Below are positions 3,496-20,946 of a stretch of DNA of 64,000 nucleotides, piece after piece. The position numbers were made by a program, and so were the translations under genes. The notes under the pieces were generated by a model that was given only the letters and a program-made list of their open reading frames with translations, was not told where the DNA came from and made no database searches. This stretch comes from Zoogloea sp. (lineage in GTDB: Bacteria; Pseudomonadota; Gammaproteobacteria; Burkholderiales; Rhodocyclaceae), in contig JADJBR010000010.1 in assembly GCA_016703645.1 (NCBI GenBank), positions 372,001-436,000 of the forward strand, read 5' to 3'. The number at the start of each line of letters is the position of its first letter. Positions within the stretch are counted from its first letter, which is position 1.

Positions 3496-4917
3496 ATGAC
3501 CCTCATCATCCCCGGCGTCGAAGTCACCGTCGTCAAGGAAGTGCTCACCCCCCAGCTTGCCCCTTCGGGCGTCCTCGGTCTGGTCGGCATCGTCGAGAAG
3601 GGTGACAAGGGCGTCGGCCGCGCCGCAAGCTGGCGCAGCTACCTCACCAGCTTCGGCGGCGCCAGCGCCTTCAGCCTTCCGGAGGCCAATCCCGCCCTCG
3701 GCAATGGCGTGTTCGAGCTCGTCGTCTGCCCGGTGGCCTGCGACAGCAAGGCCAGGTTCCCGGTCCGGCAGGCCGGGGACGACAAGAAGACAGCCTTCAC
3801 CCTGGTCGCCAAGGCGCCGGGCCCGTGGGGCAACAGGATCACCGCCAGCATCGCCTCGCGTCAGGTTCCCACCGGCCAGAAGGCCGACGAAACCCGCGGC
3901 GTGTTCGACCTGACCCTGCAATACCCCGGGGGCTACCGGGAGGTCCATCGCAACCTCTCCATCGACCCTGCGGACGGAAACCGCAATGTTTACGACGTGC
4001 TCGCCACCCAGTCCCAACTGGTTTGCATCGAGGAGGCCCGCGACAAAGTCAAGGCGCCCATGGACAGCCCGGCGCAGGCCCCCGGCGCCCAGGATCTGCC
4101 CTACGCACTCGGTGGCGCCGTCGATGCCGACCTGAGCGCCTACCAGGCCGCCATTGCGCGCCTTGAAAACGAAGCCGATGTGGACATGGTGCTGGTCTCC
4201 GTCCAGGACACCAGCGACACCGCCCGCCTGGGCCGCATCTACGCCGACGTGATCAGCCATTGCGACCGCATGAGCGCCCTCAGCCAGGGCCGCATCGGCT
4301 TCGGCGAAGTGCCCGGCAACACGCCCGAAGCAATCAAGGCGGCTGCCGACAAGCTCACCGGCACGCTGGTGTCCGACCGCTTCGTGCTGGTCGCCCCCGC
4401 CGGCGTGGTGGGTGCGGTAGCCGGCATGACCGGCAGCCTCGACTACTTCCAGTCACCCACCTTCAAGCGTCTTTCGGGCCTCGGAGAACCCGCCCCGGCC
4501 CTCGGCGTGGAGGCCCAGCAGGAACTCCTGCGCAAAAGCGTGGTGCCCATCGTTGCCCAGCGGGGGCGCGGCATCATCGTCCTGCGCGGCCTCACCACCG
4601 ACAACGATCAGATCAGCGTGCGCCGGGTGGCCGACCACGCGGTGCGCGGGGTCAAGACCATCGGCGAGCTCTTCATCGGCCGGCTCAACAACGAGGAAGG
4701 CCGAGGCGCCCTCAAGCAGAAGCTGGTGGAGTTCCTGGTCCAGATGCAGAAGGAAGGCGCCATCGTGCCCTCCACCGACGGTACCGACCCCGCCTTCAAG
4801 GTCAGCGTCTATTCCAGCCAGCAGGATTTCGCCCAGGGCATCGTGCGGGTGGATCTGGCGGTGCGCCCCGTAAGAGCCATCGATTACATCTATGCCACCG
4901 TGCTGGTGCAGGTCTGA
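3496..4917 (+). CDS. Contractile tail sheath protein
   Basis: A 473-residue protein of the phage tail sheath family: it opens with MTLIIPGVEVTVV, the usual 'PGVY/E' N-terminal strand, and ends with a strand-rich C-terminal domain (AIDYIYATVLVQV) that in known sheaths provides the inter-subunit 'handshake'. It should form the contractile outer cylinder. The start is supported by GGGAG five bases upstream. Only one sheath gene is present, whereas several extracellular injection systems carry two or three. It is first in a tightly packed operon and is followed 40 bp later by the tube gene. Assignment to the family is firm; which class of injection system it belongs to is inferred from the neighbours. 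Confidence 0.92.
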   Translation: MTLIIPGVEVTVVKEVLTPQLAPSGVLGLVGIVEKGDKGVGRAASWRSYLTSFGGASAFSLPEANPALGNGVFELVVCPVACDSKARFPVRQAGDDKKTAFTLVAKAPGPWGNRITASIASRQVPTGQKADETRGVFDLTLQYPGGYREVHRNLSIDPADGNRNVYDVLATQSQLVCIEEARDKVKAPMDSPAQAPGAQDLPYALGGAVDADLSAYQAAIARLENEADVDMVLVSVQDTSDTARLGRIYADVISHCDRMSALSQGRIGFGEVPGNTPEAIKAAADKLTGTLVSDRFVLVAPAGVVGAVAGMTGSLDYFQSPTFKRLSGLGEPAPALGVEAQQELLRKSVVPIVAQRGRGIIVLRGLTTDNDQISVRRVADHAVRGVKTIGELFIGRLNNEEGRGALKQKLVEFLVQMQKEGAIVPSTDGTDPAFKVSVYSSQQDFAQGIVRVDLAVRPVRAIDYIYATVLVQV

Positions 4918-4957
4918 CCCCTGACCCACCCGCCACGCCACATCGGAGAAACCGCCC

Positions 4958-5350
4958 ATGCCGACCGTCTTTTCCGCCAACCGTTCCAGCGTACTGGTCG
5001 ATGGCGAAGCCATCGAGGGGCTGCAATCGCTGGCCTTCCGGGTCGTCACCGAACGCGAGGACATCCGCGCCGTGGGAAGCGACGAACGGGTCGCCGTGAG
5101 TTTCGGCCTGCGCACCGTACAGGGTGAGCTCACCGTGCGTTCGGCCAGCTTCAAGCTCGATGGTCACCTGGACAAGCAGGCCAAGTTCCAGCTCGTGGCC
5201 AACCTGAAGAAGGACGACGCCGCCGACTCCCCCAAACGCACCCTGTCCTTCGACGACTGCTACATCGAGAACAAATCCGTCAGCCTCGGCGCCGGTGGCA
5301 CGGTGGTGACCGCCTACAGTTTCAGCGCCACCCGCATCCGCGAGGAGTAA
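4958..5350 (+). CDS. Probable tail tube protein
   Basis: A 130-residue, strand-rich protein directly after the sheath. Its pattern (GLRTVQGELTVRS in the middle, TLSFDDCYIENK and a closing YSFSATRI strand) resembles small tail tube subunits, which form the inner hexameric tube driven outward by sheath contraction. Length and position fit the family. The start has GGAGA upstream. The identification rests on position and strand pattern rather than a diagnostic motif. Only one tube gene is present, unlike AFP/PVC-type systems, which have several tube paralogues. Confidence 0.68.
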   Translation: MPTVFSANRSSVLVDGEAIEGLQSLAFRVVTEREDIRAVGSDERVAVSFGLRTVQGELTVRSASFKLDGHLDKQAKFQLVANLKKDDAADSPKRTLSFDDCYIENKSVSLGAGGTVVTAYSFSATRIREE

Positions 5351-5354
5351 CACC

Positions 5355-6173
5355 ATGGGCAGGCTGGCGCTGGACCTTTCCGGCACGCCCTGCCTGCTGG
5401 ACTTTGACGGCTTCAACCGCCCGCTGGGCGTTTTCGCCGGGAACATCGCCCTCAGCCTCTCCCCCTGGACCTACCGCCGCCACATGGAAGCCCTGCGCGT
5501 CACCACCCACGCCGCCGGCACCGATCTGCGGCTGGACACTCGCCGCCTCGCCGCTGCCGTGCTGGCGGGCGCCGACCTGCCGGACGATCTCGCCCGCAGG
5601 CTCGAGCCCGTCGCCCTGTGGTGGGCGGCCGGTGGCGACGACGCCCTGCCCTCCCTGCCCGAGGAAGGCGAGTGGCTCGACCTCGGTGCGGCCGGGCGCG
5701 CCCGCCTGCGCCCATGGAGCGAGCGCCAGCGCTTCAGCGCCCTGTCCGCGGCCCTCAGCGGTGAGGGCAATGACACCTGGTTCGACCCGGTGACTTACCT
5801 CGACGGCATGGTCCGAGCCAGCTTGCAGGTGCTGGACGGACCGCAAGCCCTCGATGACATGGACGCCCGCGGCACTGCCGTGCTGCTCCATGCCACCGTC
5901 ACCCTCAACCTCGCCGGCGACCAGGAAGACCCCCTGCTCGACGGGGGGCCCGCCGCCCGTGAATGGGCGGCCCGCACCCTGCGCCTGTGCCAGGCCCTGG
6001 GCTGGACCCCCACCCGCGTATGGGCCACGCCCGCGGCCGAGATCGACCGCCTGCTGCGCATGCTCGATGTGCTTCAGCCGCCGCCCCGCCCGGCCCGCGC
6101 GCCGCGTCTCTCCGACCACCCCGACGCCACGGTGATCCACATCGAGGACGATCCCCCCAGGGCCGCCCCATGA
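5355..6173 (+). CDS. Unrecognised injection-system protein, 272 aa
   Basis: I do not recognise this protein. It is mixed alpha/beta, acidic to neutral, rich in Ala, Leu and Arg, with no signal peptide or membrane segment and an acidic tail (VIHIEDD). It sits four bases after the tube stop (its ribosome site GAGGAG overlaps that stop), and its own stop overlaps the next start as ATGA, so it is certainly translated with the tail genes. In Mu-like tails this slot holds the tail assembly chaperone, and in AFP/PVC-like systems small tube-cap or baseplate proteins. Either role is possible; there is no sign of the chaperone-type programmed frameshift. Confidence 0.6.
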   Translation: MGRLALDLSGTPCLLDFDGFNRPLGVFAGNIALSLSPWTYRRHMEALRVTTHAAGTDLRLDTRRLAAAVLAGADLPDDLARRLEPVALWWAAGGDDALPSLPEEGEWLDLGAAGRARLRPWSERQRFSALSAALSGEGNDTWFDPVTYLDGMVRASLQVLDGPQALDDMDARGTAVLLHATVTLNLAGDQEDPLLDGGPAAREWAARTLRLCQALGWTPTRVWATPAAEIDRLLRMLDVLQPPPRPARAPRLSDHPDATVIHIEDDPPRAAP

Positions 6174-7267
6174 TCTCCGCCCACACCTCGCCCGCCGATC
6201 TCGCGGCCCGCATCCTCCAGCCCCTCGCCCGCAGCCTGGAGGAAGCCCGGCAACACCTCGACCTGGAGCCCATTGACGAGGCCACCACCGAGGGTGCCAT
6301 TGCAGCCCGGCAGGACAGCCTCCCCGCTGCCCCTCCGGCAGTGGCCATCCCCACGCCACGGCAACCGCCGCCCTCCGGGCCGTCGGCATCCGGGCAGGCC
6401 ATCGATGGCCGCCGCGCCGCGGATGGAGTCCCGACCTCACCGTCCGAGGCCTTGGCGGCCGCGACCGCCCACTCCACCCGGCAAGTCTCCGGCTCGCCCG
6501 ATCCTGCCCCATCGACACCCCCCGCGTCGTCAGCCCACGCGACGGCGAGAGCGGCCGGCCCCGCTGCGGCCCCCGCCCCGTCTCCGGCGCCGGAGTCGAC
6601 CGCGGACATGAACCATCCCCCCAACCGCCCATCAGCCCCTGCCGCTGCGCCCTCCACCGTGTCCGCTCCGTTGCGCGCCGCGCCAGTGCCTGCGGCCATC
6701 CGGCTTGTCCGCGCCGACTCGCCGGCCGATCCAGCGCAAACACACACACCGCAGGGGACGAACCCGGACAGCGCGCCTGCCGCCCTTGCCCTTCCGGAAA
6801 CACACCAGCCCGACGGCGCTCCACCCCGCCCCATCAGCGCCCCGCCAGGTGGCCTCGCCGTGCCGTCCGCCCCCCGCCAGTGGCGCCTGCGCCCGTCCCC
6901 GCCCGCAGAGACGGCCCCCGCGCCTGCAGCCCCTGCCACCGAGGCCACCCCCACTGCGACCCCGCCGCGTCACACCGGCGGAGCAAGCGCCAGCCTGCGC
7001 CCCCGCGATCCGGCGCTGCCCCGCGTCACGCAGGCCATGGCACCCGTCCTCGACACGGCCTGGCGGCTCACCGACGCCGCCCTGTCACCCGAGCGGAGCG
7101 AGTCCCCCCCGGCCACGCCCGAAGCCCCCCGCGTGGCCAATCACTTCCATGTGAACGTCGCCCTCGGTGACACCACCGGGACCTCCGGCCGCGACCGCAA
7201 CCAGCTTGAAGAGACCCTGACAGCCCTGTTGCGCGACGCCGCCCGGCGTCAGGGGCTGGACGTATGA
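6170..7267 (+). CDS. Pro/Ala-rich, largely disordered injection-system protein
   Basis: A 365-residue protein starting at the ATG overlapping the previous stop. Residues 1-40 look helical (ARILQPLARSLEEARQHL). Residues about 45-310 are low-complexity Pro/Ala/Ser/Thr. The last 45 residues are ordered again, with NHFHVNVALGD and a final amphipathic helix (QLEETLTALLRDAARRQG). Folded ends joined by a long flexible middle suggest a linker between tube and baseplate or a minimal tape measure. No classical tape-measure coiled coil is seen here or elsewhere in the operon. The function is unknown. Overlaps of 4 bp on both sides indicate translational coupling. Confidence 0.6.
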   Translation: MISAHTSPADLAARILQPLARSLEEARQHLDLEPIDEATTEGAIAARQDSLPAAPPAVAIPTPRQPPPSGPSASGQAIDGRRAADGVPTSPSEALAAATAHSTRQVSGSPDPAPSTPPASSAHATARAAGPAAAPAPSPAPESTADMNHPPNRPSAPAAAPSTVSAPLRAAPVPAAIRLVRADSPADPAQTHTPQGTNPDSAPAALALPETHQPDGAPPRPISAPPGGLAVPSAPRQWRLRPSPPAETAPAPAAPATEATPTATPPRHTGGASASLRPRDPALPRVTQAMAPVLDTAWRLTDAALSPERSESPPATPEAPRVANHFHVNVALGDTTGTSGRDRNQLEETLTALLRDAARRQGLDV

Positions 7268-8301
7268 AACCCGCCGCCCGGCGTACCGCTTTCCGCATCC
7301 AGCTTGGGGATGCCATCGCCAGCAGCACGGCCGGCGAATCAACCCGCCAGTTGCTGCAGCTACAGGTCGAGCTGGACATGGACGGCCCGGTTGCCCACTG
7401 CATCATCGAACTGGCCGAGGGCACGCCGCCGGCCACGGGCGATGCGGTGGAGGTCAAGCTTGACGCCGGCAGCGGCCCGACCGCGGTATTCACCGGCAAG
7501 GTGGCCGCCATCGAAGCCGGCACCGTCGGCCTGCGTGTGCTGGCCCATGGCGCATTCACCCGTCTCGGCCAGACCGAGGTGGAAGGCAGCTACGAGAACG
7601 TTTCCGCCGACTTCATCATCAAGGATCTCATTGGCAAGGCGGGCGCCACCGCGGGCACCCTTGCCAAGGGGCCGACGCTGGCCTTCTGGACGCTGCACCG
7701 GGGCCCCACCGCCCTCGGCCACCTGCGCAGCCTCGCCGCCCTGTGCGGAGCGGGCCTGTTTGCCGACGGCAAGGGCGCCATCCACTGCACCACGCCCCAG
7801 CCAGGGGGCACCGAGCATCGTTTCGCATTCGGCGAGACGGTCATTGAACTGGCCATCCGGCAGTGTCCGCCGGCCTTCGACAGTGTCGAGGTGTGGGGTG
7901 AAGGCGCAGCCAGTGCCAAGGGCGCCGACCGGGCCCACTGGCTGTCCACGGAGCTGTCGGGTGTCAGCGCCAAGGCCTGCATCACGCCGGACGGGCAAGT
8001 GCAGCCGGGAAAGCTGGGTGAACGCCCCTTGCGCCTGCGGGATGGCGCCCTTCGCTCGGGCGAAGCCGTCGAGGCCGTGGCCAAGGCCTGGGCAAGCGAA
8101 GTGGCCGCACGCCTGCTGAGGGGCAGCATGGAGGTGTTTGCCACGCCGGCCATACTGCCCGGTGACCGGGTGGAGATCACCGGTCTGCCCGATGAGCACC
8201 CCGCTGCGGCACTCCTGGGTGATGGGCAGCAGCTCCACGTAAGGGGTGTGCGTCACCGGCTCGACCGCCAACGGGGCGCACTCACCCGTCTGAGCTTCTA
8301 G
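7264..8301 (+). CDS. Baseplate hub protein, phage late control gpD / gp27-like
   Basis: A 345-residue protein with the layout of gpD/gp27 hub proteins: an N-terminal beta domain (FRIQLGDA, then strands to about residue 100), a helical insert (SADFIIKDLIGKAG) typical of the 'rapid-access' region of gpD proteins, and a C-terminal beta domain (ILPGDRVEITGLP... LHVRGVRHRLD). The hub trimer links the tube to the spike. It is coupled to the preceding gene by an ATGA overlap. The family assignment comes from this domain pattern and from the spike gene three genes downstream. VgrG-type fusion of hub and spike is not seen; the two are separate, as in phages P2 and Mu. Confidence 0.75.
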   Translation: MKPAARRTAFRIQLGDAIASSTAGESTRQLLQLQVELDMDGPVAHCIIELAEGTPPATGDAVEVKLDAGSGPTAVFTGKVAAIEAGTVGLRVLAHGAFTRLGQTEVEGSYENVSADFIIKDLIGKAGATAGTLAKGPTLAFWTLHRGPTALGHLRSLAALCGAGLFADGKGAIHCTTPQPGGTEHRFAFGETVIELAIRQCPPAFDSVEVWGEGAASAKGADRAHWLSTELSGVSAKACITPDGQVQPGKLGERPLRLRDGALRSGEAVEAVAKAWASEVAARLLRGSMEVFATPAILPGDRVEITGLPDEHPAAALLGDGQQLHVRGVRHRLDRQRGALTRLSF

Positions 8302-8314
8302 GGGCGGAGCGGCC

Positions 8315-9196
8315 ATGAGCGTGCGCATCGGCAAGATCGAGCTCAGCGGCGTGCAGGATCTGCACACCGAGGAGGCGCGCACCCTGGTCGAGCAGCGCGT
8401 GCCGGAACAGCAGGGCAGCGTCTTCCAGGATCTGGGCCGCGAGCCGGTGACCATCCTGATCGACGGTCTGTTGTTCGGCGAGGAATCCCTCTCGGCCCTC
8501 GAAACCCTGCGTCAGGCCCATGCCAAGGCAGAGCCGCAATCCTTCGCCGCCGATCTGGTGGTGGGCACCGACCTCACGGACGTCATCATCGAGGACTTCA
8601 AGGTTCGCCAGGTGGCGGGGTACAAGGACCGCTACCGTTTCAGCCTGCGCCTGCGCGAACACATCGAAGCACCCGAGGCCAGTGACGCGGCGATGGCCGA
8701 CGTCAATGCCCAGGTGAGCGCCGACGGGGCCGCCTGGGGCGATGCCAGCCTTGCCGCCGCGGGCGTGCTGCAGGACCCGGCCTCGCTGCCCGCAGCCCTC
8801 GCCGCCAACCCGGCCCTGCTCGACAACCTGGACATGGATGCCCTCGGCGACGCCGTGGCCGGCAATCTCGACAAGCTCGACACCGGCCAGCTCAATGGCA
8901 TGCTTGACACCCTCGCCGCCGCCGACCCCACCAAGGCGGGCGGCCTGATCGACGCCCTGGGCCGGGCCGGCGCCCTGGGCGGCATGCTCGCAAAATACGC
9001 CCAGGAAGGCGCCGACTTCCTCAAACAGCTCGATCCGTCCAAGCTCAGCTCGCTGATGAAGGCCTTCTCCGGCGGGCTCGATTTCCTCAAACAGCTCAAG
9101 GCCGTCGCCGACAGCGCGACCCGCCTGGCGGGTGCCATCAGGGATCTGAAGCTGCCCCCCGAGCTCGACCGGATCATCAAGGGAGGCCCGAAGTGA
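8315..9196 (+). CDS. Baseplate protein with GpU / DNA-circulation-like N-terminus
   Basis: A 293-residue protein. Residues 1-115 match the pattern of P2 GpU and of the 'DNA circulation' N-terminal domain of Mu-like tails: FQDLGREPVTILIDGLLFG, then a helix, then a strand ending YRFSLRLREHIE. Residues about 130-290 are Ala/Leu/Asp-rich helix with repeated LDNLDMDALGDAVAGN-like segments. In Mu-type tails such proteins sit at the hub-baseplate joint. The start has GGAG upstream. The annotated family name is historical and does not imply DNA handling here. The C-terminal helical half is unassigned. Confidence 0.6.
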   Translation: MSVRIGKIELSGVQDLHTEEARTLVEQRVPEQQGSVFQDLGREPVTILIDGLLFGEESLSALETLRQAHAKAEPQSFAADLVVGTDLTDVIIEDFKVRQVAGYKDRYRFSLRLREHIEAPEASDAAMADVNAQVSADGAAWGDASLAAAGVLQDPASLPAALAANPALLDNLDMDALGDAVAGNLDKLDTGQLNGMLDTLAAADPTKAGGLIDALGRAGALGGMLAKYAQEGADFLKQLDPSKLSSLMKAFSGGLDFLKQLKAVADSATRLAGAIRDLKLPPELDRIIKGGPK

Positions 9197-9744
9197 GCAC
9201 GCCCTCCGACGTGATCCGTGACCTGGCCACACTCGTTCAGGATCTGGCCGCCCTGTTGGAGACCCAAACAGCCCGGGAGATCCCCAACATTGCCCGCGAC
9301 CTGGGCGCCCAACCCCAGCTGGCCACGGGCGTTGACGCCCTCGGTCAGGTTCTTGGCGAGGTCCGTGGCGCAGCCCTGCCCTTGCAACGGGCCGCCATCG
9401 ACGCGGATGCGCTGGTGGCGCTGCTCGGCTGTGTGCCGGGGTTCGTCGCGGGGATGGGGCAGGCCGTCGACGCGGGCGGCGAATGGCTGGCCGATCTGGG
9501 CCTGGGCGACGCCGCGGCCGAGGCTGCGCGGGTGTCCGGGCCCCTGCGCCAGGTTTCCGGCGTGCTCGACATGGGGATCGACGTGGCCGAAGGCGCCGCC
9601 GCCCTTCTCGCCCCGGGCCAGTGGCGTGGACTCATTGCCGCCCTCGACCGCCTTTCCGTCTCGCTCCAGGCCCTGAAGACACCAGTGCCCCCCACCACCC
9701 CGACACCGCCGCCCCGCCCGGACGCGGCCCCTTCCGGAGGATAG
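9193..9744 (+). CDS. Unrecognised helical injection-system protein, 183 aa
   Basis: Starts with GTG overlapping the previous stop. Mostly alpha-helical and Ala/Leu/Val-rich, with a Pro/Thr-rich tail (VPPTTPTPPPRPD). It contains a central apolar stretch (LVALLGCVPGFVAGMGQAV) that could be a buried helix or a weak membrane segment. No family is recognised. Position between the GpU-like protein and the peptidoglycan-binding-like protein suggests a baseplate or lumen component. Confidence is in the gene, not in a function. Confidence 0.55.
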   Translation: MSTPSDVIRDLATLVQDLAALLETQTAREIPNIARDLGAQPQLATGVDALGQVLGEVRGAALPLQRAAIDADALVALLGCVPGFVAGMGQAVDAGGEWLADLGLGDAAAEAARVSGPLRQVSGVLDMGIDVAEGAAALLAPGQWRGLIAALDRLSVSLQALKTPVPPTTPTPPPRPDAAPSGG

Positions 9745-9749
9745 ACACC

Positions 9750-10799
9750 ATGGCCGACACCCTTCCCGCCACACCCGACGGTCGCCCCGACAACCCCTTC
9801 CGCACGGTCGCCATACTGCTCGATGGCGTGCGCGTGGCTCTGGAGAACAGCAAGCGTCAGGATCAGGCGCCACGCTGGGTGAGGGTGGTACGGGTGCGCG
9901 AATTCCGCGAAGACGCCATCGCCCGGGGCGTCATGAAGGCCATGGATGTGCTGACCCTGGCCGTCGCCTACCTGCAGCGCTTCACCCTCGACGCAGGCGA
10001 CCTGCTGATCCAGGGTGATGCCGCCAAGGCCCTCGTGGAAGTCTCGGCGGAGTTCGTCAAGACAGCCACCAGCAAGGAGTTCATCAACGCCCTGGAAGTG
10101 GCTGTCGGCCAGGAGCCAAGCCCCAACTCGCCGATCCCCGACGTGGCCAACATCATGGACAAGATCCTCCAGATCGCCGACAAGGTGCCCGAGCCCGACG
10201 ACCTCAAGACCATTGGAGCCGCCCTCTACAAACTGCTCGGCATCGAGCAGGGCCCCCTTGACGAAGCCAAGCTTGGGGCCGCCACAGAGAACCACATCCT
10301 CCAGGAGCGCACCGGCAAGCTGCGCCTCCTTCAGTTCGCCTTTGATCAGGGATTCAAGCTGCAGAACTTCGGCAAGGGGGCCACCATCACCTCGCTGGAC
10401 GTGGGCCGCCTGGGAGCGCGCCGCCTGTGGGAAGCCGCCGACGACAAGCTGCCAACCCGCTCGGTGGGCAAGTTCGGCGCTGCCCCCGACACGGAGATCG
10501 TCTGGGAACTGGCCTTCAACGGCGAGAAAAAGGGCTTCGACGTACAGGAGGCCAACAGCATCCTCGAAGCCCTGGGTTACGTGGAACCGGCGGTCGACGA
10601 CCGCAAGAAGTTCAGCGCCACCTTTGCCGCGCGGCTGCGCACCTTCCAGCAGATCAACGAGATCACCGTGTCCGGAACCCTCGACAACGCAACCCTCAAC
10701 CGCCTTTTCCACCTGGACTTCGAAGCCAAGAACCTGAAGCGGGCCAAGCGCTACAAGGCCGAGGCCCTGCCCAAGGGCTTCGACCCCATGAAGACCTGA
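9750..10799 (+). CDS. Injection-system protein with C-terminal peptidoglycan-binding-like domain
   Basis: A 349-residue protein starting at the ATG five bases after the preceding gene, with GGAGG just upstream. Residues 1-240 are mainly helical with no recognised family. Residues about 263-320 (VQEANSILEALGYVEP ... FAARLRTFQQ ... GTLDNATLNRLF) have the three-helix pattern of peptidoglycan_binding_1 domains: a helix ending in LGY, then a helix with the F..FQ motif, then GTLDNAT.. and a last helix. Lying directly before the spike gene, it may place a cell-wall-binding module near the tip or be a cargo protein. No lytic domain is visible. Domain assignment is moderate and function is inferred. 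Confidence 0.6.
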   Translation: MADTLPATPDGRPDNPFRTVAILLDGVRVALENSKRQDQAPRWVRVVRVREFREDAIARGVMKAMDVLTLAVAYLQRFTLDAGDLLIQGDAAKALVEVSAEFVKTATSKEFINALEVAVGQEPSPNSPIPDVANIMDKILQIADKVPEPDDLKTIGAALYKLLGIEQGPLDEAKLGAATENHILQERTGKLRLLQFAFDQGFKLQNFGKGATITSLDVGRLGARRLWEAADDKLPTRSVGKFGAAPDTEIVWELAFNGEKKGFDVQEANSILEALGYVEPAVDDRKKFSATFAARLRTFQQINEITVSGTLDNATLNRLFHLDFEAKNLKRAKRYKAEALPKGFDPMKT

Positions 10800-12541: not shown

Positions 12542-14051
12542 GCGGGTTTACCTGAAAAAGGGCTTTGCCGAGGTGGTGGACGCCCTACTGGACGAAATCG
12601 CCTCCGGGCGAGGCGGTCGCCTGGCCCTCACCGATGCCAACGAAGGCAGCGTTGTACGCACCCTCGCGGAGGCCTTCGCCCGCGAACTGGCGGTGTGCTA
12701 CGAGCAGCTCGACGCGGTGTATCGCAATGCCTATCTCGATTCCGCAGCGGGCGCAGCCCTCGACAATGTGGTGGCCCTGCTCGGGGTGGAACGCCAGCGG
12801 GGCGGACACCTGGAAGGCACCGCCACCTTCAGCCGCGGCCAGCCGGCGCCCGAGGACATCCACATCCCCCTTGGCACCCTGGTGGCGGGGCGTGACGTGC
12901 CACTCTTCGCCACCACGGCCAACGCGGTGCTCGACAAGGGCGCGCGTCAGGTGGTGGTGGGCGTGCGCGCCGTGGAACCGGGGGGCGAGACGGTCAAGGC
13001 CGGCGCCCTGGCCAGCCTGCCCCGGCCCATCGCCGGCATCGACGAGGTGAGCAACCCGGGCTACCTGGTGCTGCGCCAGCGTGAGGAAACCGACGAGGAG
13101 TTGCGTGCCCGGGCCCGACGCCTTGTGCGTTCCTCCAACACCGGCACCGTCGCCGCCCTCGAGGAAGCCGCCCGCGGCCTGGGCATCCGCGAGGTGCAGG
13201 TGATCGAGAACCCGGAGGGCCGTCCGGGGGAGGTCGAGGTCGTGCTGGGCGACCGGGACATCGGTGCCGACCTGCTGGCCGCGGTGAAAAACCGTCTCGA
13301 GAACGTCCGCCCGGCCGGCATCGTCCTGCATTGCGGGCCTGCCACCCCGATCCTCGTGCAGGTCACCGCCACCCTCACCCTCAACGCGCGCCCATCGGAA
13401 CGGGAACAGGCCGAGATCCAGAAGCGCCTCGGCAGTGTGCTGGCCGACTACTTCGGCACCCTCAAGGTGGGTGAGGCGGTGCGTGAGGCCAAGATCCGTG
13501 CCCTCCTGCTGGGCCATGATGCCGTGGTGGGGTGTGAGCGGAGCGGCCAGCGGCCATTGCTGGAGCCGTTTGCCAGGAACGGGGATGGCACGCTCGAATC
13601 CATCGCCTTCCGCGCCCTGATGGGCAGCGGCGACCTAATGGCCCGCCCCGGCGAACGCCTCTTCCTTGACCCGAAGACGCTGCCCCTGCGCCTGAGCCTC
13701 GAATCGCCCCTTGAAGATCTGTGGATAGACATCCATCTCAGCCTCAGCGGCGCCCCAGCCGGAAGCGACTTCGATGCCCGGGTCATGGGCTCGATCAAGG
13801 ACCTCTTCGACAAGGCCGCCCGTTCGGCCACCACCGAAACCCCGGCCCGCGTCCGCTACACCGACCTGCATGGGGCGATCAGCAGGCTTGTCGTCCACAT
13901 CCACATCGTCCGCCTGCGCGTCACCGTCACCCACACCCGCGACGGGCTGGTGGAAGAGCTTGATGGCGAGGACGGCGAGGCCACCATCGGCCCCCGCGAA
14001 CAGGCCATTCCGCGCAAACCCAGGCTGCGCATCGAGGGTGGCGATGGCTGA
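12531..14051 (+). CDS. Baseplate wedge protein, gpJ / gp6-like
   Basis: A 506-residue baseplate J-like protein. Typical features are the N-terminal region with YLDSAAGAALDNVVALLGVER, the strand-rich middle beginning at the RGQPAPEDIHIPLGT turn, the REETDEELRARARRL helix, and the VTATLTLN strand followed by a helix in the C-terminal half. J/gp6 forms the wedge ring around the hub. The start is the ATG inside the end of gp25. The extra C-terminal part (about residues 370-506) is longer than in P2 gpJ (about 300 aa) and nearer to the gp6 of complex baseplates. It overlaps the next gene by 8 bp. Confidence 0.85.
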   Translation: MALERVYLKKGFAEVVDALLDEIASGRGGRLALTDANEGSVVRTLAEAFARELAVCYEQLDAVYRNAYLDSAAGAALDNVVALLGVERQRGGHLEGTATFSRGQPAPEDIHIPLGTLVAGRDVPLFATTANAVLDKGARQVVVGVRAVEPGGETVKAGALASLPRPIAGIDEVSNPGYLVLRQREETDEELRARARRLVRSSNTGTVAALEEAARGLGIREVQVIENPEGRPGEVEVVLGDRDIGADLLAAVKNRLENVRPAGIVLHCGPATPILVQVTATLTLNARPSEREQAEIQKRLGSVLADYFGTLKVGEAVREAKIRALLLGHDAVVGCERSGQRPLLEPFARNGDGTLESIAFRALMGSGDLMARPGERLFLDPKTLPLRLSLESPLEDLWIDIHLSLSGAPAGSDFDARVMGSIKDLFDKAARSATTETPARVRYTDLHGAISRLVVHIHIVRLRVTVTHTRDGLVEELDGEDGEATIGPREQAIPRKPRLRIEGGDG

Positions 14052-15780
14052 CACCCGGGTGCGCCGCGAGCGCCTGCTCTCCCTCCTGCCACGCATCTTC
14101 ACCAGCCAGCCCGAGTCGAGCGCCCTGGGGAGGGTCATTGATGGCATGGCGGCCAGCCTCACCCGGATGGATGAGGCCCTTACCCGCGTCCAGTACGACC
14201 GCTGGGTCGGGCTGGCCAGTCATCACCCCCCCTCCACCGACGACATCAGTGCCCTTGAGAGCCTGGGCCAGTTGCTGCAGATAACGCGCCTGCCGGCACG
14301 GATCCGCCATGGGGGCTACGAACGGAGCCCCGCCGGGATCGAAGTCCGCTTCAGCCCCGCGGCCCCCCTGGCCGAAGCCCTCGACGAGCTCATCGGCAGC
14401 GGCTGGCGCCAATCCGACCCCCTGGGCCTGCTGGAGGCGCGCTTCAGCGGCCTGCGCTTCACCCTTGCCGACGCCAGCAACAGCCTGCGCGCCGAGCCCG
14501 CGCCCGGTACCCCGACCGAGACCGCCACGAGCAGCCTCGCCCTCCTCCAGACCCAGCTCGACCCGGAGCCCGGCGAGGCCTTCCGCCAGCGCCTGCTGAT
14601 CACTTCGCGGGTACGCATGGGCGGGCTCACCACGCCCCGCGCCCTGCTCTCCCTGGCCCTTGCCGACCTTGGCGCGGAAACCTGTCCCCAACTGGAGCGC
14701 CATCCCGACAGCACCCTTGCCATCGGCCTGCCTCCCGGCACGCGCAAGCGCTGCCCCGCCTGCACCGGTGACACGCGCGGCCAGCCCTGCCCCAATCAGG
14801 GCCAGGCGGTCATCACGGCCTGGCTCACGGAAAACCCGGTACTCGATGCCCGCCATCTGGAGCCGACCCCACGCCTGCGCCGGGTATTCAAGGTGGAGAA
14901 CGCCAGCCTCTGCCCGGACAGGCCGGTGATCACCCTTGAGGCGCGCGACCAGCCCGTGCCCTACCCGGCCCTGCGCAGCCTCGACAGCGGTGAGATCACC
15001 CTTTATGCCGGCACCCTGCGCCCGGGCGACACCCTGGTGCTGTATCCGGCCTGCCCGCCAGCAGAAACCGCACGCTTCGACGGCTTCGATTCTCCCGACC
15101 ACCACCCCTGGCTGACAACCCACCCCCAGGGGCGCGCCGTGATCACCGACGCCGGGGGGATGGAGCGGGATGTCAGCTCATCCATCTTCTACCTGTGGGG
15201 CGCCCGCCTGGACGACAGGGACACCACCTTCGACGCCCTGCATTTCGGGGTGCTCGAACAGCGCGCCCTCAGCCCCCTTCTCCGCCCGGGGAGCAACGAC
15301 TGGATGCTGCTGACCTTCGCCCAGCCGGACGCCACTTTTGCCGACAGCGACGACACCGTGACCAGCTCGCGCTTCGCCGACAGCGACGACCTGGACGGCA
15401 CCCGTTTTGCCCTCCTGGACGGCACCATCGGCCAGGGTGATGCCCGCTACGCCTCGGTGCTGCTCGAGTCCTTCAATAAGACCAACACCGGGGGCACCAC
15501 CGAGAGCGACACCGCCCACCTGGGCCGCCTGAGCCTGCGCCTCGACTGGCTGACCCGCCCCCCTGCCAGCATCCGTCTGCGCATTCCCCGGACTGACTGG
15601 GTCGCCACGGCAGACGCACGCAATGCCCTGCCCCTGCTGCGGGACGACATAGCCCGGGCTTCCGCCGCAGGTGTGCGCGCCCTGGTGGAATTCCCCGCGC
15701 CGCCCCAGCCCCTGGACGAAGGCACCGGCCTTGCCCCGGCCACGGCCCGGCATCGGGCCGGCAAAGCGCCCCTCCGATGA
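14044..15780 (+). CDS. gpI-like baseplate/tail protein with large C-terminal extension
   Basis: A 578-residue protein. The N-terminus (RERLLSLLPRIF, then helices) resembles P2 gpI / Mu gp48 tail proteins, which join wedge to fibre, and the gene follows gpJ as gpI does. It is far longer than gpI (about 180-200 aa). The added part carries four cysteines, C214, C237, C240 and C249, spaced like a metal-binding knuckle, and two FADSDD segments near residue 440. The ATG at 14044 was chosen because it begins the recognisable region and overlaps the gpJ stop. The extension probably forms a fibre-attachment or cage domain. The gpI relation is moderately supported. Confidence 0.6.
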   Translation: MADTRVRRERLLSLLPRIFTSQPESSALGRVIDGMAASLTRMDEALTRVQYDRWVGLASHHPPSTDDISALESLGQLLQITRLPARIRHGGYERSPAGIEVRFSPAAPLAEALDELIGSGWRQSDPLGLLEARFSGLRFTLADASNSLRAEPAPGTPTETATSSLALLQTQLDPEPGEAFRQRLLITSRVRMGGLTTPRALLSLALADLGAETCPQLERHPDSTLAIGLPPGTRKRCPACTGDTRGQPCPNQGQAVITAWLTENPVLDARHLEPTPRLRRVFKVENASLCPDRPVITLEARDQPVPYPALRSLDSGEITLYAGTLRPGDTLVLYPACPPAETARFDGFDSPDHHPWLTTHPQGRAVITDAGGMERDVSSSIFYLWGARLDDRDTTFDALHFGVLEQRALSPLLRPGSNDWMLLTFAQPDATFADSDDTVTSSRFADSDDLDGTRFALLDGTIGQGDARYASVLLESFNKTNTGGTTESDTAHLGRLSLRLDWLTRPPASIRLRIPRTDWVATADARNALPLLRDDIARASAAGVRALVEFPAPPQPLDEGTGLAPATARHRAGKAPLR

Positions 15781-15807
15781 GTCCCATGCCGTGAAGGAAA
15801 TCCTCTG

Positions 15808-17241
15808 ATGGCCGACACTCCCCTTCCCTATATCGCCAAGGAACCCGGCGACATCATGCTCGCCGCCGACTGGAACCAGATGCAGGTGCTCGCACGCAGC
15901 GAGCTCCGCGGGCACGACCACACGGACGGCAACGGCCTGCGGATCCCCCGCGCCGGCATCGCCGACCGGGCCATCGACGGCAGCAAGGTGGACCCTGAAA
16001 GCACACTCGCGGTAAAGAGCCTCTCCATCGATGGCCCCCTCAAGGTCACCGGCACCACCCAGCTCGCCGACATCCAGGCCGCCCTGGCCCGCTTCAGTGG
16101 CGCCAGCCTCACCACCAGCGGCGATCTGGGCGTGGGCACCGACCAACCCGAGAACAGCGAAGGCTGGCACCGGGTGGTGGACATCCTCGGTGAAGCCCAC
16201 GCCAAACTGTCCATCCGCGCCGGGGCGGTCGATGGGCGGGTGATGAGTCACACCACGGGCATCCACGGCGCCGAGCCGGGCATGGTGGTGGGCACCCGCA
16301 GCATCTATCCGCTGAGCTTCGTCGTGGACAGTGAGATGCGCCTGCGCCTCGCCACCGAAAAGGCCGACAAGGCGTCCGCGACCCCGGTGGCAGATTTCTT
16401 CCCCGACCACAACCGCCTGCGCATCTCGTCGGGATGGACCAACCAGGCCGACGACAACTCGGCCGAGATCTGCAACGACAGCAAGCAGTACAAGGCGCTC
16501 ATGCTCCTGGGCAACCGAAGCCAGGAAGGCAGGGAAAGACATGTCGCCGTCTGGGACCGGCTGGAGGTGAACGGCAGCCTCGTGCTTGGCGACGCACCGG
16601 TGAAGGTTCCGACGGGGGCCATCGGCGCCTTTTGGCGCAAGGGTGATGAAGCCTGCCTGAGCATCGCCCGCGTACTCAACGTGATCGACAGTGAGTCCAC
16701 CCAGGTGCGCTTCCAGTTCAATATCAAGGATGGGGTGCTGAAGACCGACGTGCTGCGCCTGGGCAACAAGTGGCGGATGTCGGCCATCGGTGATGCCCAT
16801 GGCAACGACGGCTGGCTGCGCCTCTTCAACGTGGATAACACCGGCTACTTCGGCGGATTCGCGGCAGACGTGATGTGGTGCACCAAAGGCTCCTTCGCCG
16901 GCTCCGATCTGCGCCTGAAGGAGAACATCCACCGCCTTGAAAATGCGACCGCCGCCCTGCGCCTGCTGCGTGGGGTCCACTTCGATTGGCGCAGCGGCGG
17001 ACAATCCGTCGGCCTGATCGCCCAGGAAGTCGAAGCGGTCCTGCCCGAAGCCGTCACGGAAGGCCCCGATGGCTGGAAGGGCATCAACCCCACGGCCCTC
17101 ATCGCCCTGCTGGTCGAAGCCATGAAGGAACAGCAGCTCATGATTGACGCACTGCGCGCAGCCCCGCTGCGCGCCCCTGAGGGAGCCCCACCATGGCCGA
17201 CCGCCCCGAACCCTACGTCAAACGCGCCGCCGGCGACGTGA
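15808..17241 (+). CDS. Tail fibre 1 with C-terminal S74 intramolecular chaperone
   Basis: A 477-residue protein. Residues 1-60 form an adaptor with GHDHT and IPRAGI that is shared with the next gene. The middle is strand-rich (LGVGTDQP). Residues about 366-455 are a peptidase_S74 / endosialidase chaperone domain: S366-DLRLKENI supplies the serine and lysine of the self-cleavage site, followed by VGLIAQEVEAVLPEAV. In known fibres this domain trimerises the shaft and then cuts itself off before the serine. The ribosome site AAGGAA precedes the ATG. The Pro/Ala tail overlaps the next start by 49 bp. Confidence 0.8.
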   Translation: MADTPLPYIAKEPGDIMLAADWNQMQVLARSELRGHDHTDGNGLRIPRAGIADRAIDGSKVDPESTLAVKSLSIDGPLKVTGTTQLADIQAALARFSGASLTTSGDLGVGTDQPENSEGWHRVVDILGEAHAKLSIRAGAVDGRVMSHTTGIHGAEPGMVVGTRSIYPLSFVVDSEMRLRLATEKADKASATPVADFFPDHNRLRISSGWTNQADDNSAEICNDSKQYKALMLLGNRSQEGRERHVAVWDRLEVNGSLVLGDAPVKVPTGAIGAFWRKGDEACLSIARVLNVIDSESTQVRFQFNIKDGVLKTDVLRLGNKWRMSAIGDAHGNDGWLRLFNVDNTGYFGGFAADVMWCTKGSFAGSDLRLKENIHRLENATAALRLLRGVHFDWRSGGQSVGLIAQEVEAVLPEAVTEGPDGWKGINPTALIALLVEAMKEQQLMIDALRAAPLRAPEGAPPWPTAPNPTSNAPPAT

Positions 17242-18590
17242 TCCGCGCCGACCACTGGAACGAGGCCCAGGTCCGCGCCCGGGAGGACATTGGCGCCCAT
17301 GACCACACCGGTGGCCTCGGCGCCCCCATCCCCCGGGAGGGCATCCTCGAAAAAGCCATCGACGGCACACGCATCGACCCCGACGCCCGTGTCACCGTGC
17401 AGGATCTGGAGGTTCGCGGTGAGCTGAAGGTCAGCGCACGCACCCTGCTGGCCGAAATCGACAGCCTCATCGGCAGCGTCCGCACCATGCTCAATCGTAA
17501 CGGCGACACCGTCGAGGGCCGGCTCAACGTGATCGGCAACCTGGGCATCGGCACCGAACGCCCCGCCGGCTGCCGATTGCAGATGGGCAATCTCACCACT
17601 CTGGACTGCGGCTCGCGGGAGAATCCCTGGACCAACCTGGGGTGGAACGCTTATTACGATGGCAGCTGGAAGCGCCTCGACCCGGACAAGCCCGGTGCCA
17701 ACCTGCACATCAGCGGGGAGGGCGCGGGCCAGGAATTCCGCTTCCTGCGCATGGACCCGGACGGCAGCAATGCCCACAACATCGCCGTCATCGGCAGCAA
17801 GGTCTGCGCCATCAACGACGCCAACCTGGGCATCGGCACCGCAGCCCCCAATGCCCGGCTCGACGTGCGCGGCGCCATCCATGCGGGCGGCTCCGACATC
17901 TATTTCACCGAAACCACCCATCGCCATACCGGCTTTGGCAACACGCCGGGCTTTGCCGCCATCGAAAACGACGGCAGCACCTACAACGCGCTGATGATCC
18001 TCGGCCGCTCCACGGGAGCCCCCCTGGGGCGGGTCGTCAAGTTGTGGGACAACGTCTTCATCGCCGGCAACCTCGGTACCCACGGCTATTCGCCGCAACC
18101 CCTCACCGCCGGCTGGGGGGGTGGCATCCACACCTGGGACGTGGAGGCCGAGGGCACCATCTGGTCGAGACATGGCGTGCAGACGGGCAACCGTGACCTG
18201 GCCGAAAATTTCGACACCCGCGAGATCCTGGAGGCCGGCGACGTGGTCAGCCTCGATCCGGACGGGACGGGCATCGTGCGCTGCCGACAACGCGGTGACC
18301 CGCTGGTGCTGGGCGTCGTGTCCTCCGACCCCGGTCTGCTGCTCGGCGCCGATCCCGCCCGCCGAATACCACGCCCGGGCGAGTACCCCATTGCCCTGGT
18401 GGGGCGGGTACGCTGCAAGGTGAGCGGCGAAAACGGTGCCATCCGCAAGGGCGACCTGCTTTCCGCCGCCACCCCGCCCGGCCACGCCATGCGTGCCGGC
18501 GACGCCGCCCCCGGCACCACCATCGGCAAGGCCCTCGAAGACTTCGACGGCAGCACCGGCCTTATCGATGTATTCGTGTTCCTTCGCTGA
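17193..18590 (+). CDS. Tail fibre 2, paralogous N-terminus, different C-terminal module
   Basis: A 465-residue protein. Its first 60 residues align with those of fibre 1 (ADHWNEAQVRAR, AHDHTGG, IPREGI, AIDGTRIDPD), so both probably dock on the same site. Two LGIGT..P motifs (residues about 115 and 212) mark beta-helical shaft repeats. The C-terminal 130 residues (from DLAENFDTREILEAGDVVSL) are not an S74 domain but a beta module with RVRCKVSGENG and IRKGDLLSAA that I have seen as a recurring end of surface and fibre proteins; it may be another maturation or trimerisation domain. The start lies 49 bp inside fibre 1. Confidence 0.7.
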   Translation: MADRPEPYVKRAAGDVIRADHWNEAQVRAREDIGAHDHTGGLGAPIPREGILEKAIDGTRIDPDARVTVQDLEVRGELKVSARTLLAEIDSLIGSVRTMLNRNGDTVEGRLNVIGNLGIGTERPAGCRLQMGNLTTLDCGSRENPWTNLGWNAYYDGSWKRLDPDKPGANLHISGEGAGQEFRFLRMDPDGSNAHNIAVIGSKVCAINDANLGIGTAAPNARLDVRGAIHAGGSDIYFTETTHRHTGFGNTPGFAAIENDGSTYNALMILGRSTGAPLGRVVKLWDNVFIAGNLGTHGYSPQPLTAGWGGGIHTWDVEAEGTIWSRHGVQTGNRDLAENFDTREILEAGDVVSLDPDGTGIVRCRQRGDPLVLGVVSSDPGLLLGADPARRIPRPGEYPIALVGRVRCKVSGENGAIRKGDLLSAATPPGHAMRAGDAAPGTTIGKALEDFDGSTGLIDVFVFLR

Positions 18591-18620
18591 TCCACCCGAA
18601 AGCCCACCCGGAAACCTGCC

Positions 18621-18836
18621 ATGAAGCCCATGATCGAAACCCGCCTTGAGGAACTGCGCCGCGAATATGAAGCCGGCGCCGGCGTGATGAACGAACTTCA
18701 GAAAAAACAGGACGAGTTGCGCACGACCCTGATGCGCATCAGCGGCGCCATCCAGGTGCTGGAAGAATTGCTCGCCACCGAGGCCGCCGGGCAGGATGCC
18801 GCCGAAGCCGGCGGTCCGCGGCTCGTCGCCAACTGA
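18621..18836 (+). CDS. Small coiled-coil injection-system protein, 71 aa
   Basis: A short acidic, helical protein (RLEELRREYEAG, then ELQKKQDELRTTL) predicted to form a coiled coil, with an Ala/Gly tail. No family is recognised. It sits between the fibres and the last two operon genes and shares their strand. It might be a fibre chaperone or adaptor. Its coding character is supported by heptad spacing and by the tight operon. Confidence 0.55.
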   Translation: MKPMIETRLEELRREYEAGAGVMNELQKKQDELRTTLMRISGAIQVLEELLATEAAGQDAAEAGGPRLVAN

Positions 18837-18852
18837 ACCGGGGGCGCATGGC

Positions 18853-20165
18853 GTGGCCGAATCCGTCTCCCTGCGAGGCCCGGATGAGCAGCCCGCTGAC
18901 GGCCGGAACTGGAACGCCGGTGGCGACGGGCTGGCCCTGGCACTCTCCCTGCCGCCCAGGCGACGCCTGGGCTCCGCCCGACTGCTTGTAGGTGCCGCCG
19001 AAGGGGGCGAACGTCCCCTCGACGAACTCGAATTCCCGGCCTTGCCACCGACATCGGCCCCCATGCCGGCACGAGCGAAGCCCTCTGGCAGTGGGCCCGC
19101 GTCGACTGGAAAGCGCCCCGCGCGCTCATCGGCGTGCGGGTGGAGGCTTCCCCACCCGCGGTCGGCGCCCTCGTCCCACCCCGCCGGACGGGCGCGCGCC
19201 TACGCCTCTTAAGTAATGGTAGCTGGCTGCCCCTGGCGCCGCTGGACACCCTGCCCACCGGCACCGAGCAGAGTTTTCCCGCCCAATGCGCATCGGCCCT
19301 GATGGCCGAGATGCTGATCGAGGGCGACGCTGCCGAAAAGCGCACCGGCGTGCTCATCCCCGGCATGCTCAATGGCCGCCGGATCGGTCTGCGCTTCACC
19401 CGGCAGCCCTGCCAGCTCAGCGTGGCGATCGGCAATGAGCCCCCCTTCTTCAGCGCGGACGCCCCCTTGCCCGAAGCCGGACTGGTGGTGGCAGGGCTCG
19501 CCCGTGCCATCAACCGTTACCTGAGCGATCATCCGAGCGCTGCGGTTGTTCCACTGAACATCGCCACCGCCAACACGCACCCCCTGCGCATCATCGCCTT
19601 CGAGGCCGAACTTGAGGCACCGCCCCCGGCCGCCACGCCCGACGCGCCGCCCCCCGAGCCCACCGACCAGCCCCGTCCGGGAGAGCGTGCGCTACTGCCC
19701 CCCACCGACCGCATCCCCCGCGTGGCCCGTCTGTGCGACGCCGACCACGCGGCCGGGCTCCGCCTCGCACCTCTGCCACAGGGGGTGCGCCTGTCCAGCG
19801 TCCAACTGCAGCTACGCAATCCCGGCGACGAAGAGGCCCGGGGCACACTGAGTCTCCACGCCGACGAACACGGCTCCCCGGCCGGCACCGCCCTGGCCTC
19901 CTGGCCCATCGCCCTCCCGGCCGGCGACACCCCCCGGTGGGTCTGCAGCCGCCTGCCCGCCCCCCGGCCGCTGGCCGGCCAGCCCTGGTGGCTGGTATGC
20001 CGCGCCGAACACGGCAGCCTGCAGTGGTATGCTGACACCCATTGTCCGGATCTCATCGACGCAGCCTCCCATTGCCGCGGCAGCGGCCCCTGGTTGCCCC
20101 TGGACACGCCCGCCCCTGCCCCCTGGCTGCACCTCCAGGCCGGCGTACTCGACCCGGAAGACTGA
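18853..20165 (+). pseudogene. Late injection-system gene with apparent one-base frameshift
   Basis: Two frames together make one plausible protein. From a GTG at 18853 the first frame reads to ELEFP (about 19037). The continuation SEALWQWARVDWKAP and the rest lie in the -1 frame down to 20165. The 1,313-nt span is one base short of 438 codons; one extra C in the run at 19035-19037 would restore a 437-residue protein. The region is not a recognisable slippery heptamer, so a real mutation or a base-calling error is likelier than programmed frameshifting. The restored product is strand-rich with a Pro-rich linker (about 19615-19680) and no recognised family. A downstream GTG at 19134 could yield a shorter protein of 343 aa. 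Confidence 0.6.
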
Positions 20166-20169
20166 CCTC

Positions 20170-20946
20170 ATGCTTGGCCCCCTCGAACAGCTATTGCGCC
20201 CCGGCCTTGCTGCCGCCCTGCCCCCGGGTCAGGATCTGCAGACCGGCCCTGCCCCGGCCCCCGGCGGAACGGCCAGCCGCGTGGCCATCCATGCCCGACG
20301 TTTGGTCCAGGATGACCCGAACACCCCGGACGAGCGGCCAAGCCGCGATCCGGCCTTCCAGGGCTGGCAAGGCACCCTTGCCGCGACCCTGGAACATCCG
20401 CTGGACTTCATCCTGCCCGACGACGCCCCCGGAGATCTGACCGAGGTGCACTGCCCGCCCGGCCGTGTGCTCGCAGCCGGTGACGCCTACCTCCTCGACG
20501 GGCGCACCCTGCGCTTCTTCCGCGCCCCCCCTGGCCCGGTTCTGGCGCGCACCCGCGGCGCACCCTGCGCCGGCTACCAGGAGCGCAGAAACAGCAGAAT
20601 CGATCTGGAGCTGCAGGCCTGGGCGCGGGACATGAGCACCGCCGACGATCTCCTCGCCCGCGCCCTGGCGGCGGTATTGGCAACCGTCTCCGGGCTGGAC
20701 GTGATCGATCTCAGCAGCGCCCCGCCCCACCTCAGCCTGCGCCTGACCGCCCCCCGGGTGAGCCTTGCCGGCATCGAACGCAACCTTGATCCGGACAACC
20801 CCGAGCGGCTGCACTGCGTTGCCCATTGCCTGATCCGTGGCGAACTGGAAACCAGCCTGATCCTTGGGGCGCCCGATCCCCAGGGGCGCATCAGCGAAGT
20901 GGACGTGGCGCTGCACCTGCCATCCCGGCCGCCATCCGGCGGCTGA
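20170..20946 (+). CDS. Unrecognised last gene of the injection-system operon, 258 aa
   Basis: Starts at the ATG four bases after the preceding stop. The protein has an Ala/Pro-rich N-terminus, a strand-rich middle (YLLDGRTLRFF) and a segment YQERRNSRIDLELQAWARD followed by helix and strands ending ISEVDVALHL. No family is recognised and no signal peptide is present. Co-transcription with the fibres and the terminator just after it show it is the end of the operon. Confidence 0.6.
   Translation: MLGPLEQLLRPGLAAALPPGQDLQTGPAPAPGGTASRVAIHARRLVQDDPNTPDERPSRDPAFQGWQGTLAATLEHPLDFILPDDAPGDLTEVHCPPGRVLAAGDAYLLDGRTLRFFRAPPGPVLARTRGAPCAGYQERRNSRIDLELQAWARDMSTADDLLARALAAVLATVSGLDVIDLSSAPPHLSLRLTAPRVSLAGIERNLDPDNPERLHCVAHCLIRGELETSLILGAPDPQGRISEVDVALHLPSRPPSGG

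Follow-up and report, generated by a model that had tools for sequence, protein, structure and literature searches.

Contractile tails that lack a phage head are known from the extracellular contractile injection systems (eCISs), also termed phage-like-protein translocation structures (PLTSs), of the AFP, PVC, MAC and AlgoCIS types, from R-type tailocins with their resemblance to the tails of phages Mu and P2, and from a system of the haloarchaeon Halogeometricum borinquense that works in a type VI mode; a tail of similar gene order serves the haloarchaeal myovirus HGTV-1. Here we describe a cluster of contractile-tail genes at positions 3496-20946 of a 64,000-nucleotide stretch of a Zoogloea-related genome (the window, C10:372001-436000 of a 4.99 Mb assembly in 10 contigs; cluster coordinates are window positions), which, to judge from its genes, belongs to a lineage of needles that fits none of the well-studied kinds. 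We interpret the cluster, with a probability of about 0.7, as encoding a headless, ATPase-free contractile injection particle of its own lineage, probably extracellular and aimed by fibres. The gene content, the lack of any recognizable head, ATPase or lysis gene, the wide synteny, the separate sheath group and the constrained core are observed; how the particle is assembled and released, what it targets and what it might carry we infer.

Gene content and comparison with described systems

The cluster comprises 18 open reading frames (ORFs), all on the + strand and so closely packed that intergenic distances run from -49 to +40 bases, the exception being 297 bases ahead of the open part of gene 17. 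This agrees with the first-pass annotation, made from the sequence alone, which had proposed a headless one-strand tail cluster with overlaps or short gaps. Pfam and PHROGs name the sheath, spike, gp25, gpJ, the S74 fibre, a DNA_circ_N-like protein and a PG_binding_1 protein, and the genes are as follows.

3496..4917, + strand: contractile tail sheath, 473 aa, single copy (PF04984 5e-11, PF17482 1e-7, phrog_279 4e-23; own group in the sheath tree)
4958..5350, + strand: predicted tail tube, 130 aa, from its position after the sheath and a weak phrog_290 match (2e-5)
5355..6173, + strand: 272-aa putative tail assembly chaperone, in a Mu-like position between tube and tape-measure slot
6170..7267, + strand: 365-aa Pro/Ala-rich protein in the tape-measure slot, its putative role taken from position only
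7264..8301, + strand: baseplate hub, gpD/Mu gp44-like, 345 aa (profile search of PDB; hhalign)
8315..9196, + strand: DNA_circ_N/Mu gpN-like baseplate protein, 293 aa (PF07157 2.5e-4; phrog_184, baseplate hub)
9193..9744, + strand: 183-aa protein, conserved in most close relatives, no family matches
9750..10799, + strand: 349-aa peptidoglycan-binding-domain protein directly ahead of the spike gene (PF01471 2.6e-8), conserved in relatives
10823..11461, + strand: spike, gpV-like, 212 aa (PF04717 9e-7; TIGR01644 below cut-off)
11470..12117, + strand: protein of three diverged repeats, in the PAAR slot that follows the spike, no Pfam match
12128..12541, + strand: gp25-like baseplate wedge/sheath initiator (phrog_975 3e-18; PF04965 just below cut-off)
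12531..14051, + strand: gpJ-like baseplate wedge (PF04865 5e-23; phrog_6 1e-49)
14044..15780, + strand: gpI-position baseplate protein, 3' end lost in the window copy (alignment with relatives; tblastn of L017 and L019 proteins)
15808..17241, + strand: tail fibre with S74 intramolecular chaperone (PF13884 4e-14)
17193..18590, + strand: second tail fibre, resembling the relatives' first fibre, fast-evolving in two of three genome pairs
18621..18836, + strand: 71-aa protein after the fibres, present in most close relatives
18853..20165, + strand: gene 17, split over two frames (tblastn of an intact 433-aa Zoogloea protein; open part 19134-20165)
20170..20946, + strand: 258-aa protein (gene 18), candidate tail cap/terminator (AlphaFold2 model; archaeal profile match)

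No capsid, portal, terminase or integrase appears among the 18 products by Pfam and PHROGs, nor any match to a holin/endolysin lysis cassette, for which the flanks were named only in part. Head genes just upstream, or a sheath lodged in an ordinary prophage clade, had been singled out as what would overturn the idea of a phage-tail-derived particle; none of the former is recognized in the 20 kb upstream of the window (partly by eye, with ten flank proteins named), by eye the rest of the window likewise yields no recognized head, terminase or integrase gene, and the 41-sequence tree described below places the sheath elsewhere. The window holds no tRNA genes, a promoter and terminator scan gave no excess over shuffled sequences, and none of the 18 products rises above the curated cut-off of any NCBIfam family (gene 17 being taken throughout as its open part).

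Several components emerge from profiles rather than from single sequences. The hub, which has no Pfam or PHROG match on its own, finds Mu gp44 (1wru, 1.5e-7) and VgrG/gp5-type chains among solved structures when searched as a profile of 19 relatives. In hhalign comparisons, which covered all products except the sheath, spike, gp25, gpJ and the 71-aa protein and counted matches above 30, the hub scores 96.7 to HGTV-1 GPD and 95.5 to Mu gpP. The 293-aa product, previously labelled GpU-like, instead matches DNA_circ_N and a hub PHROG, and scores 100 to its counterpart in an archaeal cluster (see below). The gpI-like label given to gene 13 is based on its slot and on a profile match (95) to an archaeal protein, itself without a name, that fills the corresponding slot; the gene 13 profile matches no solved structure. 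The 272-aa protein, whose C-terminus is conserved, shows no hhalign match to Mu gp41, and neither its chaperone role nor the tape-measure role of the Pro/Ala-rich protein (18% Pro, 22% Ala, conserved mainly at the C-terminus) receives support from these profiles. The tube is among the cluster's most conserved proteins (69-97% identity in close relatives), and its profile has no match among PDB structures. The AlphaFold2 model of gene 18 (pLDDT, the model's confidence score, 89.5) has helices and long beta strands, which we take to fit a tail terminator; its hhalign score to a gene of the archaeal cluster is 86.8, and Pvc16 of the control eCIS is not among its matches. The repeats of the protein after the spike are visible in translation and partly in the DNA. 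A three-repeat analogue of PAAR was considered for this slot, and shorter 147-aa forms in four relatives (L029-L032) speak against a simple threefold arrangement.

The genome also encodes, as its second system, an eCIS of the ordinary kind that has two sheath genes (C7:1294702-1319649, on L005 and L006) and served as a positive control. By Pfam the control yields Pvc16_N, sheath, T4_gp19, CIS_tube, Phage_base_V, gp25, gpJ and Tail_P2_I, and the window cluster shows the sheath, spike, gp25 (below cut-off) and gpJ of these families. With eCISs it shares a headless contractile tail, a sheath, gp25, gpJ and a spike, the lack of lysis genes and spread by transfer; it differs in having no recognized AAA+ ATPase, gp19-type tube, Pvc16_N cap or CIS_tube/LysM protein, in a gene order that follows the Mu tail, and in a sheath that falls into a separate group. 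An AAA+ ATPase was reported as 'always' present in eCIS/PLTS clusters (Sarris et al., PMC4122934), whereas the 18 ORFs give no Pfam AAA match and no Walker A motif; in the control the same motif scan flags a 752-aa ORF (not Pfam-scanned) together with three other ORFs of that stretch. The tube family PF06841 is matched in the control at 6e-36 and the cap family PF14065 (Pvc16_N, which we take to be the eCIS cap DUF4255) at 3e-33, and neither is matched in the cluster. Neither LysM nor PF19266 is matched in the cluster; the control has PF19266 and likewise no LysM. The LysM protein of eCISs precedes the hub-spike gene, and the cluster's peptidoglycan-binding protein similarly precedes its spike. 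No PAAR protein is matched in the window cluster, a family reported as absent from Proteobacteria in any case (PMC4122934). What separates the cluster from eCISs is thus the lack of the AAA+ ATPase, gp19-type tube, Pvc16-type cap and LysM protein, together with the sheath tree. The two marks offered earlier fare less well: single-copy sheath and tube do not set it apart from eCISs, and a separate hub and spike cannot do so either, as the control eCIS likewise encodes a Phage_base_V protein of spike size that stands by itself. The cluster may work like an eCIS, and we do not class it as one. Matches to a TssB/TssC pair, ClpV or TssJLM of type VI secretion systems are lacking among the 18 products by Pfam, and the single sheath is of the Phage_sheath_1 family.

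With Mu/P2 tails and R-type tailocins the cluster has in common a sheath, tube, chaperone slot, tape-measure slot, gpN-like protein and hub, spike, gp25, gpJ, gpI slot and fibre, hub and spike being separate. It departs from them in having no recognized head, lysis or integration genes, in a sheath outside the Mu and P2 groups, and in additional, conserved genes for the peptidoglycan-binding protein, the repeat protein after the spike and the products of genes 17 and 18; against Mu itself (AF083977), the hub lies ahead of gpN and the terminators upstream of the sheath have no counterpart. The HGTV-1 tail is similar in order and in its hub profile (96.7), and its spike is 36.5% identical over 45% of the query, but portal, protease and capsid genes adjoin it. 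The H. borinquense system is headless, and 9ezm, the best solved match of the sheath profile, is probably its structure; the system differs in being, according to the available text of its description (PMC11566945), a membrane-bound member of eCIS clade IIa.

Relatives, hosts and spread of the lineage

Sheath matches were found in 5 of 300 genomes of the order, the window genome included, two of them at 71-72%; a weak match in G028 had no other cluster genes around it and was dropped. A spike-alignment scan of a species-genome collection returned 25 loci. Twenty are close (spike identity 59-97%) and lie in 19 genomes, a Polyangia metagenome-assembled genome (MAG) contributing two; their hosts are Zoogloea, a Rhodocyclaceae MAG, a Zoogloeaceae MAG, Accumulibacter, Chitiniphilus, Chitinolyticbacter, Azohydromonas, a Desulfobacterales MAG, and the Myxococcota Polyangia and Plesiocystis. 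To the extent of each contig, all 20 keep one order: sheath, tube, 272-aa protein, Pro/Ala-rich protein, hub, gpN-like protein, 183-aa protein, peptidoglycan-binding protein and spike, then repeat protein, gp25, gpJ, gpI slot, fibres, 71-aa protein and genes 17 and 18. Because this order recurs in 20 loci, it is not due to chance. Among the 20, the more distant loci lack tblastn matches for up to 5 genes, mostly in the slots of the Pro/Ala-rich protein, the 183-aa and 71-aa proteins and gene 17; a Pro/Ala-rich ORF nevertheless occupies its slot in four such loci (L026, L027, L033, L034), and in L030 gene 17 sits ahead of gpJ.

The other five loci are distant (spike identity 31-40%), follow the gene order more loosely and belong to an archaeal Nitrososphaerales MAG, Anaerolineales, Acidobacteria and two proteobacterial MAGs. 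All five have spike, gp25, gpJ and, by profile, the hub; the sheath is present in four and was not found in the Anaerolineales locus. The archaeal locus (L086/L087), part of a metagenome assembly in which a binning error is possible, holds sheath, tube, a chaperone-like protein, gpN, hub, spike, gp25, gpJ and a fibre-like protein, then a gene 18 homologue and, further on, a PG_binding_1 protein (3e-27) and a PAAR protein; a phospholipase D (PLD)-like protein is encoded on the opposite strand between hub and gpN, and beyond the cluster the genes look metabolic by eye. An IS110-like transposase was seen by eye near the contig end. In the acidobacterial locus the hub is preceded by a gene (L039:5241-8963) for a 1240-aa protein; this carries TIG domains and a beta helix and matches OmpA weakly, below cut-off.

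A sheath tree was built from 41 of 51 sequences, one fragment and nine extra references, mostly P2-type near-copies, having been dropped beforehand. Eleven close and five distant members form one group (support 93/91, just under the tool's mark for firm support), inside which the archaeal sheath and one from the IMG/VR virus database lie nearest to the close family (100/99). Outside it fall the genome's own eCIS sheaths with three references, the P2-type (13) and the Mu-type (6) sheaths; the HGTV-1 sheath also falls outside, on a very long branch that makes its placement unsure. The references are Pseudomonadota plus three phages, not a full catalogue, and sample the eCIS side thinly. At 1e-5 the sheath matches none of 50,697 phage records and none of 72,556 plasmid records. 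The earlier suggestion of a poorly described lineage of phage-tail-derived particles is supported. The gpJ protein reaches 63 phage records at 1e-3. Haloarchaeal and Bacillus viruses make up most of these, and no match extends over 80% of gpJ; the spike matches four phage records from two viruses. The IMG/VR scans used short peptide patterns, so that absence there is weak; one of three completed scans matched a single contig, L085 (IMGVR_UViG_3300045996_004455; 12 kb, 30% GC), in which only tail-type or injection genes akin to the archaeal cluster are recognized and which is possibly a cellular contig misfiled as virus.

In a five-gene tree covering 18 loci, a single clade of the Rhodocyclales members is rejected (p-AU, the approximately unbiased test, 1e-4), and the gene set has therefore moved between hosts. 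Its insertion sites are unrelated and, mostly by eye, flanked by genes that resemble housekeeping genes. In Zoogloea the set lies between the ftsY and rml regions, in Azohydromonas it adjoins secD/yajC-like and ribosomal genes, and in Chitiniphilus a TetR-like gene (gene names are by eye, apart from the ten flank proteins named in the window genome).

Mode of action and competing explanations

The particle would consist of a sheath around a tube, a hub of Mu/P2 type, a separate spike, a wedge ring of gp25, gpJ and gpI types, and fibres of S74 type, with the gene 18 product presumably capping the tail where a phage carries its head. It would be built in the cytoplasm and set free without lysis genes of its own. 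Once the fibres hold a target cell, contraction would drive the spike through the envelope, and the peptidoglycan-binding protein encoded ahead of the spike might touch the target's wall. Ratios of nonsynonymous to synonymous change (dN/dS) were obtained for three genome pairs only. Between the window and L017 the recognized structural genes range from 0.06 to 0.37, the fibres stand at 0.40 and 0.76 and the Pro/Ala-rich protein at 0.57; between L019 and L017 the values are 0.06-0.44 for structural genes, 0.53 for the 272-aa protein and 0.66 and 1.07 for the fibres; between L020 and L023 they are 0.00-0.23 for structural genes and 0.25 and 0.18 for the fibres. A second fibre that changes fast in two pairs, as expected of receptor-binding parts, leans toward a free particle with a changing target.

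A number of points weigh against this picture. The second fibre is not fast in the L020/L023 pair (0.18). The assignments of tube, chaperone, tape measure, gpI and cap come from position or weak profiles, no effector is recognized in the window cluster, and the particle is known here from genes alone, none having been seen. Four of the 18 products (sheath, 183-aa protein, repeat protein and gene 18) exceed a mean hydropathy of 1.6 over 19 residues, the top value being 1.95; the sheath is surely soluble, and a membrane role is conceivable for the other three. Release as a free particle is the likelier mode, with anchoring to the producer also conceivable. The window copy itself may be dead or inactive, or its assembly wrong, in view of two lesions and a long core branch. 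At 15702-15808, tblastn shows the 3' end of the gpI-slot gene to be missing together with a conserved 158-aa gene, which is present in all 17 close loci that reach the region (the other three of the 20 end before it); most relatives carry the 158-aa gene beside the first fibre, and L027, L030 and L034 have it between gp25 and gpJ. At 18853-19134, gene 17 starts in one frame and continues in another. In the five-gene tree the window core branch measures 0.16 against 0.046 for its sister (3.5x). Relatives hold intact copies of the cluster.

Of the other explanations, a cell-anchored, contact-dependent system of type VI mode, as in the haloarchaeal clusters, would accord with 9ezm as the best solved sheath match, a structure cited in the available text on the membrane-bound haloarchaeal system (PMC11566945). 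The three moderately hydrophobic non-sheath products, and a likely membrane segment (hydropathy 2.12) in the nSTAND protein encoded upstream of the sheath, point the same way. We nevertheless consider anchoring unlikely: the cluster has no clear membrane protein, the nSTAND gene is not beside it in one genome (G676) and occurs without it in another (G620), the S74-type fibres fit a free particle, and a recycling ATPase is lacking. That the cluster is an R-type tailocin, a defective-prophage tail retained as a bacteriocin against close kin, we hold to be quite improbable. The single sheath and tube, the separate hub and spike, the fibre that in two of three pairs has strongly diverged from one related species to the other and the lack of a recognized payload would all suit a tailocin, but no lysis gene or prophage remnant is recognized in the cluster or in the 20 kb upstream, the sheath falls outside the P2-type group, and the same cluster recurs across several phyla. 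Least credible, with very little probability, is the tail module of an unsampled virus or prophage; the order is near that of Mu and HGTV-1 and L085 has related genes, but no head gene is recognized in that 12-kb contig or, by eye, in flanks from eight genomes.

An extension of the headless, ATPase-free particle reading is that the lineage represents an old, separate class of ATPase-free cellular injection systems of bacteria and archaea, with a needle that breaches walls by a spike-borne peptidoglycan-binding part and an archaeal member used as a weapon against bacteria. The archaeal cluster contains or adjoins genes for a peptidoglycan-binding protein and a phospholipase D-like protein; the archaeal host itself has no peptidoglycan wall. 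We put this forward tentatively, as a speculation that may well not hold.

Published reports and neighbouring genes

The lineage is widespread, and named isolates (Zoogloea sp. 1C4, Chitiniphilus, Chitinolyticbacter and Azohydromonas) are among its carriers. A cluster without the ATPase that has been called always present (PMC4122934) offers a way to test if such systems require it in the first place. In literature searches that left subscription journals and preprints mostly uncovered, no paper was found joining 'contractile injection system' with Zoogloea, and among the matches listed none joined 'contractile injection' with Plesiocystis, Accumulibacter, Chitiniphilus or Chitinolyticbacter, or phage tails or tailocins with Zoogloea. 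Novelty in print is uncertain: the accessible part of Evseev et al. (PMC9230969) includes chromosomal sheath homologues of archaea and Acidobacteria, and related sheaths may already have been seen. An Accumulibacter secretome lists, in the part available, a tail sheath protein confined to the supernatant and a gp19-domain protein (PMC12019908); with that gp19-domain protein, and a source that is perhaps Hydrogenophaga, the sheath cannot be tied to the present lineage.

Directly upstream of the cluster lies one further gene, which begins ahead of the window.

3..3365, + strand: nSTAND1-WD40 protein (PF20703, WD40)

It is preceded and overlapped by a TIR gene (L004:18273-19760; TIR_2, with an FxsC-like N-terminus below cut-off), whose product gives only a weak ThsB match in PADLOC. 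The TIR gene occurs in 7 of 13 searched host genomes, all seven of Zoogloea type, and in six, as deduced from positions, beside the cluster; all 6 of these loci with upstream sequence have the nSTAND gene ahead of the sheath. Across 121 genomes of the family, the window genome included, TIR is found in four and the sheath in three. The pair was considered as a functional partner of the cluster and set aside, as the two occur apart: G620 has the TIR-nSTAND pair (L104) and no sheath match in its genome, and G676 has the cluster beside other genes and the pair on another contig. The TIR-STAND genes are probably chance neighbours and not part of the system. Past them, the upstream genes are formyltransferase-like, ABC-binding-protein-like, ftsY and M16-peptidase-like, and the downstream flank holds wecB, rmlA, a dTDP-glucose dehydratase gene and pyruvate kinase, in keeping with the housekeeping surroundings noted in the first-pass annotation.

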